From Gammaproteobacteria bacterium (lineage in GTDB: Bacteria > Pseudomonadota > Gammaproteobacteria > SZUA-229): a DNA stretch of 64,000 nucleotides. Positions 19,634 to 22,222 of the stretch are shown one piece after another (within the stretch, counting starts at the first letter, position 1; every line of letters begins with the position of its first letter). A program made the position numbers and the translations under genes. The stretch lies in NCBI GenBank assembly GCA_029882215.1, contig JAOULC010000003.1, positions 62,001 to 126,000 on the forward strand, in the 5' to 3' direction. The notes below the pieces were generated by a model. It was not told where the DNA came from and did no database searches. It saw nothing but the letters and a program-made list of their open reading frames with translations.

Positions 19634-20356
19634 CTAATCTGTTTTACCCCATAACCGACCGTCACCTAACTTATTCAAATATTCTTCATGTGCAGTCATT
19701 TCCTCTGCAGATGCCAGTACCACGGGCGAGGCTTTTCGGTTAGCACTGAGTTTTTGAATAATTTCATCACGCTGCTTATGTTCCTCTTCAGGTGACTCTG
19801 TATTACTGTCCAGCAGCAAGTTACTTTGCCCGCCAGTCATTGCCAGATAAACGTCAGCTAATATTTCAGCATCCAGTAAGGCGCCGTGTAATTCACGCTT
19901 ATCATTATTAACGTCATAGCGTTTGCACAGAGCATCCAGACTGTTTCTCTGCCCCGGATGCATTTTTTTGGCCATTACCAGCGTATCTAAAACGCTTGCA
20001 TGGTCATTAATGGTGATCAGTTCTTTTGCATGGTTCTGGTTTAATAGTTTAAATTCATGCTCAATAAAGCCGATATCAAACGGTGCATTGTGGATAACTA
20101 GCTCAGCACCTTTAATAAAACTGAGAAAATCATCAAAGATATCTTCAAAGCGGGGTTTATCGGCCAGGAATTCGCTGGTGATGCCATGCACAGCAAGAGC
20201 ACCCTCTTCGCTCTCCCTGTCCGGCTGAATGTATTGATGGTAATGGTTGCCAGTGAGTTTACGGTTGATCAGTTCAACGCAACCAATTTCAATAATTCTA
20301 TTACCTTGTCTGGGGTCTAAACCGGTTGTTTCTGTATCTAGTACAACTTGACGCAT
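19634..20356 (-). CDS. dnaQ: DnaQ, DNA polymerase III epsilon subunit (3'-5' exonuclease)
   Basis: Proofreading exonuclease of the replicative polymerase, 240 aa. DEDD-family motifs: Exo I at the N-terminus (VVLDTETTGLDPRQGNRIIEIG), Exo II (ELVIHNAPFDIGFIEHEF) and Exo III (LHGALLDAEILADVYLAM, with the catalytic His-Asp pair). The C-terminal ~60 residues are the polymerase-alpha-binding tail. In many gammaproteobacteria dnaQ lies beside rnhA; here a porin gene lies between them. It diverges from the porin, so its 5' region borders the Pho-box cluster. Confidence 0.93.
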   Translation of the reverse strand: MRQVVLDTETTGLDPRQGNRIIEIGCVELINRKLTGNHYHQYIQPDRESEEGALAVHGITSEFLADKPRFEDIFDDFLSFIKGAELVIHNAPFDIGFIEHEFKLLNQNHAKELITINDHASVLDTLVMAKKMHPGQRNSLDALCKRYDVNNDKRELHGALLDAEILADVYLAMTGGQSNLLLDSNTESPEEEHKQRDEIIQKLSANRKASPVVLASAEEMTAHEEYLNKLGDGRLWGKTD

Positions 20357-20422: not shown

Positions 20423-20478
20423 CTGTCATTTATCGTTAATAAATCTGACATCATTTTGTCATTAACAACTGCTGTAAT
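20423..20478 (+). promoter_or_regulatory. Tandem Pho box and -10 of the porin gene
   Basis: Four 7-mers sit at exact 11-bp steps: CTGTCAT (20423), CGTTAAT (20434), CTGACAT (20445), TTGTCAT (20456). The three 4-bp spacers are mostly A/T (TTAT, AAAT, CATT). The PhoB site consensus is two CTGTCAT repeats separated by 4 bp, so this reads as two adjacent PhoB sites. A -10-like TGTAAT follows at 20473-20478, 10 bp after the last repeat, the normal geometry when PhoB replaces the -35. The porin start codon is at 20545. Confidence 0.72.
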
Positions 20479-20544: not shown

Positions 20545-21513
20545 ATGAAACACTTAAAACTAAATGCTATTTCAATGGCTCTTGCGGCTTCTTTAATTGC
20601 ACCTGTTGCCATGGCAGAAAACACTGTTTATGGCAAAGGTCATGTCAGTATTGCTTCGATTGAAGATGCTACTGGCAGTGCTGTAGCCGTTACCAGTCAT
20701 GCTTCACGCTTTGGTGTTAAAGGCAGTGTTAAGCAGGACAGCAGCGCTGAAGTCATCTACAAACTGGAATGGCAGGTAGATATGGCGGACAAGGCCGACT
20801 CGACTCAGATTAAAGCACGCTCACAATATATTGGCCTTAAAGATAGCTGGGGCGAAGTGCGTTTAGGTCGCGATGACTCACCTTATAAAGGCGCTGGAAA
20901 AAAAGCGGTCGAGTTTTTCAGTGATACTTTTGCTGATTACAATAACATCATTGATAAAGGTCAGGACATACGCGCCGATAACGCGTTATCTATCAAGTTA
21001 AATGCCGGCCCGGGTAAAGTTAGCCTGATGTATGCCGCTGGTGATGATACAACGGCTGGTGATAATCTTGCTGACATGACATCAATTGCATACGATGCAA
21101 GATTTGGTGCCATCACACTGGGTTTAGCGACCCAAACGGTTAATAAGTCATTAACAAATGATGAAACAGGTACTAAGCTTGCATTAGGCTACAAAATCAG
21201 TGATACAACACAGCTTGGCTTTGTCTATGAAACGGTTAGCGATGATACAACAGCCGGTTTTGATGATAAAAACACGCTGATCAGCTTCAAACATAAAATG
21301 GAAGAAGATGCCATCAAGCTGGCTTACGGCTTCAAAGATCAGGGTCTAGCGAGTGATGCTACGATGTTGGCTGTGGCATATGATCATAAAATCAACAAGA
21401 CCACTACTGCTTATGCACTCTACGCAGATGGCTCAGATAACGGTTTAAATGACGCCAGCAAATTAGCCGGTGACTCCTCCGTGATTGCTACGGGTCTGGT
21501 CGTTAAGTTTTAA
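20545..21513 (+). CDS. Outer-membrane porin, probably phosphate-starvation inducible
   Basis: 322-aa general porin-type beta-barrel. The ATG at 20545 follows a good Shine-Dalgarno (AGGAAA) and gives a clean signal peptide cut after VAMA; the frame also opens further upstream at 20521 with TTG, which I reject. Porin marks: NTVYGKGHVSI as the first strand, RSQYIGLKDSWGEVRLGRDDSPY (the conserved loop-3 entry region) and a C-terminal phenylalanine (VVKF). It faces the outer membrane as a trimer by family. The upstream Pho repeats suggest PhoB control, like PhoE, but the sequence does not prove phosphate selectivity. Confidence 0.88.
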   Translation: MKHLKLNAISMALAASLIAPVAMAENTVYGKGHVSIASIEDATGSAVAVTSHASRFGVKGSVKQDSSAEVIYKLEWQVDMADKADSTQIKARSQYIGLKDSWGEVRLGRDDSPYKGAGKKAVEFFSDTFADYNNIIDKGQDIRADNALSIKLNAGPGKVSLMYAAGDDTTAGDNLADMTSIAYDARFGAITLGLATQTVNKSLTNDETGTKLALGYKISDTTQLGFVYETVSDDTTAGFDDKNTLISFKHKMEEDAIKLAYGFKDQGLASDATMLAVAYDHKINKTTTAYALYADGSDNGLNDASKLAGDSSVIATGLVVKF

Positions 21514-21561: not shown

Positions 21562-22020
21562 TTAATCCTCCAGCTTCCCCATGACTGAGTCAGCTCCTTT
21601 GTTTGCGAGCTCATCGGCCATTTCATTACCATCATGACCGTCATGACCTTTTACCCACTTCCATTCAATCTCATGCATTTCTCTGGCTTTATCTAAGCGT
21701 TGCCATAAATCTGCATTTTTGACCGGTTTTTTAGCCGCATTTTTCCAGCCATTTTTTTTCCAGCCATCAATCCACTCGGTAATACCCTTTAACACATATT
21801 TCGAATCTGAGGTTAACTGGACACGACAAGGCCGGGTCAAATTTTCTAAACCCATGATGGCTGCCATTAACTCCATTCTGTTATTGGTGGTGTTTTTTTC
21901 ACCACCAAACAGTTCTTTATGAGTACCGTTATAATGCATCCAGACGCCCCACCCTCCCGGTCCGGGATTGCCTCTACATGCACCATCTGTAAATAACTCA
22001 ACAATCTTTTCAGCAGACAC
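21562..22020 (-). CDS. rnhA: Ribonuclease HI
   Basis: Removes RNA from RNA-DNA hybrids. I start it at the GTG at 22020 with AGGTCG upstream, giving 152 aa, close to the 155 aa of E. coli; the frame is open further upstream (to 22128) but that part is unlike RNase H. Catalytic residues are visible: Asp in [18 protein letters not shown], Glu in [10 protein letters not shown], Asp in LTSDSKYV, and the His loop/final Asp in [18 protein letters not shown]. The C-terminus carries the basic-protrusion helix ([19 protein letters not shown]). Confidence 0.92.
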
Positions 22021-22222
22021 AATTCGACCTATTTTTGAAACGGGCTTGCATTTCACACGGCTAACAAAGAAAATGCAATCTAATTTATCAATTGTTAAAT
22101 TCAATGAATAAACAGCGACATCTATCAATCACTGCTTTTTTAGATAATATATCTTTATGTGATTGATAAATATACATATTTTACGAACACCCTGCTACAT
22201 CAACAAAAGTTTTATACAAATT

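Follow-up and report, generated by a model that had tools for sequence, protein, structure and literature searches.

The four phased repeats that precede a porin gene in the 64,000-nucleotide stretch of DNA analysed here ('the window') can be assigned, with high confidence, to a PhoB-activated promoter driving this gene. The layout of this four-repeat promoter is almost identical to that of the promoter of the genome's own pstS gene. Phosphate starvation therefore very probably induces the porin, as it does PhoE-like porins in other bacteria, and the best reading is that of a general anion porin activated by PhoB, which would resemble PhoE in its role but not in its family. We infer PhoB binding, induction at low phosphate and permeation of anions or phosphate as follows: with phosphate scarce, PhoR would phosphorylate PhoB, two dimers of which would occupy the four 11-bp units in head-to-tail orientation and substitute for the -35 element; sigma-70 RNA polymerase, recruited in this way to the -10 hexamer TGTAAT, would start porin transcription about 60 bp before the ATG. 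The porin would then raise the permeability of the outer membrane to anions such as phosphate, and this influx would feed PstS/Pst uptake, itself induced via the same type of promoter. The regulatory prediction is ordinary and well supported; that PhoB can control a porin induced by starvation is a familiar principle, and the case is new only as a member. It adds to the porins of the Pho regulon a Porin_4 protein from a gammaproteobacterial family that has been little studied, and the family-specific four-unit Pho promoter profile is usable for regulon mapping.

Architecture and statistical weight of the probable porin promoter

A Pho box comprises at least two direct CTGTCAT-like 7-bp repeats with AT-rich 4-bp linkers, that is, 11-bp units (PMC3511308, PMC4415409). 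The porin site has four such units in 11-bp steps, spanning 20423-20462 with 4-bp spacers throughout (Table 1), and direct reading of the sequence confirms exactly the four phased repeats and the TGTAAT described in the initial annotation. In the column of the second unit, the pstS promoters of congeners read TGTTAAT and GTTTAAT. A 10-bp gap, TAACAACTGC, leads from unit 4 to TGTAAT, an imperfect -10 hexamer ending 66 bp 5' of the porin ATG at 20545. The 10-bp gap is the spacing expected where the box replaces the -35 and the -10 lies about 10 bp downstream. Consistently, a promoter scan detected at the site neither a separate -35-like hexamer nor a sigma-70 -35/-10 pair. An RBS-like AGGAAA precedes the ATG.

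Table 1. Features of the porin locus, in window coordinates.
Feature	Position	Strand	Basis or remark
dnaQ, DNA polymerase III epsilon subunit (RNase_T)	19634..20356	-	divergent from porin
Pho repeat unit 1, CTGTCAT	20423..20429	+	sequence reading; pstS-matrix and profile scores
Pho repeat unit 2, CGTTAAT (weak unit)	20434..20440	+	sequence reading; family pstS promoters
Pho repeat unit 3, CTGACAT	20445..20451	+	sequence reading; unit matrix
Pho repeat unit 4, TTGTCAT	20456..20462	+	sequence reading; identical to unit 4 of own pstS promoter
-10-like hexamer, TGTAAT	20473..20478	+	same column as -10 of pstS promoters
Porin gene, 322 aa, signal-peptide-like start, PF13609 Porin_4	20545..21513	+	profile match; nearest structure Omp32
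rnhA, ribonuclease HI (RNase_H)	21562..22077	-	convergent with porin

The weight of this arrangement was assessed against pstS promoters of the family, gathered from 54 genomes and put in register, nearly all of which consist of four 7-bp units in 11-bp steps followed, after 10 bp, by a -10. With a 7-bp unit matrix built exclusively from these promoters, the porin site, for which scoring with a PhoB-type matrix had been proposed, comes out on top in the window with a four-unit score of 27.4 bits vs 6.4 for the next best place on either strand. None of 69 million positions of third-order Markov sequence (about ten genome equivalents, both strands) reaches 25 with the same matrix, and alternative steps of 8, 9, 10, 12, 13 or 14 bp yield -0.9 at most. 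A 58-column matrix derived from 25 family pstS promoters, with the porin site left out, likewise gives the site the highest score in the window, 22 bits ahead of the runner-up (14.6 vs -7.3), and places it above the best match in 3.4 Mb of random sequence (10.6).

The PhoB system and Pho boxes in the genome and its relatives

The initial annotation had made its prediction depend on the presence of phoBR and of similar repeats at pst genes, and both are found in the genome (3.43 Mb, 144 contigs). A PhoB exceeding the NCBIfam cut-off is encoded at C1:80557, with a PhoR-like kinase and PstS directly downstream, so that phoB, phoR and pstS are all present. Its effector domain aligns without gaps to that of E. 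coli PhoB and is nearly identical through the recognition helix, the stretch NVYVEERTVDVHILRLRK having just two differences. The own pstS promoter, CTGTCAT-TTATCAC-CTGTCAT-TTGTCAT followed by 10 bp and CATAAT, shares with the porin promoter the four phased units, the 10-bp gap and the -10 column, but differs in the sequences of units 2 and 3 and of the -10. The phoB box comprises two units (TTGTCAT-CTGTCAC), and three Pho units lie upstream of the gene after pstS. In a whole-genome scan with profile R1 (from A1), which was built on the sequences of 19 pstS promoters and includes the own pstS but not the porin, the pstS promoter scores 41.8 bits, phoB 20.8, the gene after pstS 18.4 and an unassigned site at C84:27074 17.5; the porin ranks fifth with 17.4 bits (E 0.015), and all later places reach 15.0 at most.

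Several other places in the genome carry Pho-like units. The C84:27074 site (L170 1501) has four phased units, and an ORF of at least 80 aa was not found downstream on that strand. On C59 (L039 5369-6706), a gene whose product is, by eye, a fusion of a PstS-like domain with an OmpA-like C-terminus is preceded on its own strand by CTGTCAT-AAAT-ATGAAAT, 10 bp and TAGAAT, and is likely a further Pho target. Three phased units, 10 bp and TATTAT precede a small lipoprotein gene at C132:4649 (L186 1501-1585), and three phased units lie upstream of a histidine-kinase-like ORF at C16:55559 (L038 5560-5634).

The porin sites of relatives show how far the arrangement is kept. The orthologous porins of congeners G001 and G002 are about 60% identical, and at the place of units 3-4 their genes have ATGTCAT-CATT-ACGTCAT and CTGTCAT-CATT-GTGTAAT, respectively, each followed by 10 bp and TTAAAT; these two-unit sites (p about 0.001-0.002) lie about as far from the porin as in the window genome, and units 1-2 are not conserved. 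Among the other genera, four phased units precede the porins of G050 (22.0), G053 (14.8), G033 (14.0) and G035 (16.7), located 107-133 bp before the ATG and each with p = 0.001, the lowest value that 1000 dinucleotide shuffles can give. The porins of G040 and G038 and both porins of G044 score low (four-unit p 0.008-0.74) and are without clear boxes, and phoB/pstS were not found in these three genomes. For G043, the porin shows a weak four-unit match and a phoB/pstS match was not found. A rule that the box occurs exactly where phoB is present was not adopted, since G043 and G053 (an incomplete genome) have a four-unit match, weak in G043, and no phoB was found in either. The own genome's other Porin_4 gene (on C56) has no such site and serves as a negative control. 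As an observation apart, the genomes G040-G044 and G038 of genus g10 gave no phoB/pstS match though three of them are 97-98% complete, and their porins are mostly without Pho boxes, which suggests that the Pho system was lost in part of this genus.

It has to be considered that the repeats might be a chance alignment of AT-rich sequence without function. Single CTGTCAT-like pairs are indeed common: the loose pattern CTGTCATNNNNCTGTCAT matches, with at most three mismatches, at 506 places in the genome vs 282 for the reversed pattern, and was discarded as too loose in favour of the matrix and profile R1. The four-unit score is, however, far above that of random sequence and specific to the 11-bp step, and congeners keep units about as far from their porins. 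A chance origin, tested with shuffled and random sequence and with alternative steps, was thus rejected, and we regard it as hardly credible. Somewhat less improbable, yet still quite unlikely, is binding of the 11-bp repeats by another regulator of the OmpR/PhoB family, for example the second PhoB-like protein, at C16:35312, or one of two further full-length members, in which case the porin would answer a different signal. No fewer than three further full-length members of the OmpR family are encoded in the genome, and regulators of this family bind direct repeats at 10-11 bp steps, but the units match the boxes of the own pstS and phoB in both sequence and spacing, and the same sequence class is found at pstS across the family.

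PhoB might also bind the site mainly as a repressor, or act on the divergent dnaQ, with the porin under other control. Repression by PhoB is known for some genes, and dnaQ starts 67 bp away in an intergenic region of only 188 bp. Against this stand the orientation of the repeats and the porin-side -10 at 10 bp, which match activated pstS promoters, as well as the phased units at porins of other genera without an adjoining dnaQ, so that we attach a very low probability to such a role. PhoB-dependent activation of the porin gene is hence the reading that we retain. Weighing against it are the weak unit 2, the imperfect -10, the absence of units 1-2 from G001 and G002, the weak match in G043, for which no phoB was found, and a protein that falls outside the families of both classical Pho porins.

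Genomic location of the porin gene

As the initial annotation had recognized, the porin is flanked by dnaQ and rnhA. The Porin_4 gene lies between RNase_T and RNase_H neighbours, and 188 bp separate it from the dnaQ start at 20356. The proposal in that annotation that the porin with its promoter may be an insertion between genes that adjoin in many relatives holds at the level of the genus: 18 relatives, drawn from nine other genera, have dnaQ and rnhA as direct neighbours with the same orientation, and a porin lies between them in G000, G001 and G002, that is, in genus g1 only. In G003, the porin adjoins rnhA and the contig ends there. The three complete g1 porins group with full support in the tree, and the simplest reading is a single insertion between dnaQ and rnhA, no later than the base of the genus. 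We also observed that G001 and G002 (L042 2575-3261, L070 2246-2962) have a lipoprotein-like ORF of ~230 aa between porin and rnhA, which is absent from the window genome.

Elsewhere in the family, the porin lies beside hydrogenase and prephenate dehydrogenase genes (g14), an ABC-transporter set and a purC-like gene (g7), or coaD and rsmD-like genes (g10), all names having been assigned by eye. This different neighbourhood in each genus leads to the reading that the promoter and the gene are kept as a unit while the chromosomal place changes. One may thus speculate, albeit with considerable doubt, that porin and PhoB promoter changed chromosomal site together in the history of the family, and that a Fur-box-like site was added upstream in two congeners, resulting in joint control by iron and phosphate.

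The porin and its comparison with known systems

The protein matches PF13609 (Porin_4) with 98.2 bits, well over the cut-off of 27, barrel strands are predicted, and the best Foldseek matches are Omp32 and OmpU. The underlying AlphaFold model, built from four sequences, is of low confidence (pLDDT 60) and was used for the fold only. Omp32 is also the closest solved protein by sequence (E 9e-14); the best of the 12 hits in the PDB sequence search are Omp32 and PorB, and OmpF/PhoE are absent from these 12. PhoE belongs to Pfam Porin_1 (PF00267), whereas PF13609 is the sole Pfam match of the window porin, and membership in the PhoE/OmpF/OmpC family was rejected on these grounds; so was membership in the OprP/OprO family of phosphate-selective porins, which is marked by an arginine ladder, there being no match to another Pfam porin family and no OprP among the PDB sequence hits. 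Of the 'PhoE-like' designation given initially, the role therefore stands as a fair description and the family membership does not.

Among solved porins, the anion-selective Omp32 of Delftia (Comamonas) acidovorans is nearest by sequence and fold, but shares only about 20% identity with the window porin. Its constriction arginines R38 and R133 align with R55 and R143 of the porin, and both positions are invariant in the four aligned orthologues. The weak model does not allow these side chains to be placed. The alignment fits an anion pore and does not prove one; arginines of the Omp32 type may be widespread among Porin_4 proteins and are no proof of phosphate selectivity. Omp32 is not known as a Pho-regulon porin.

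For such regulation the parallels come from other porins. PhoE of E. coli and Citrobacter is likewise an outer-membrane porin behind tandem CTGTCAT-like units, and its induction at low phosphate and permeation by anions (PMC3511308) are, for the window porin, predicted only. KpnO of Klebsiella pneumoniae, another porin in another organism, is reported to be regulated by PhoBR (PMC3405095). Finally, Vibrio cholerae VCA1008, though from a different organism and locus, is an anion-selective porin made under phosphate limitation and linked to PhoB/PhoR (PMC13157583), and provides the likeness of a Pho-linked anion-selective porin in a non-enteric gammaproteobacterium.
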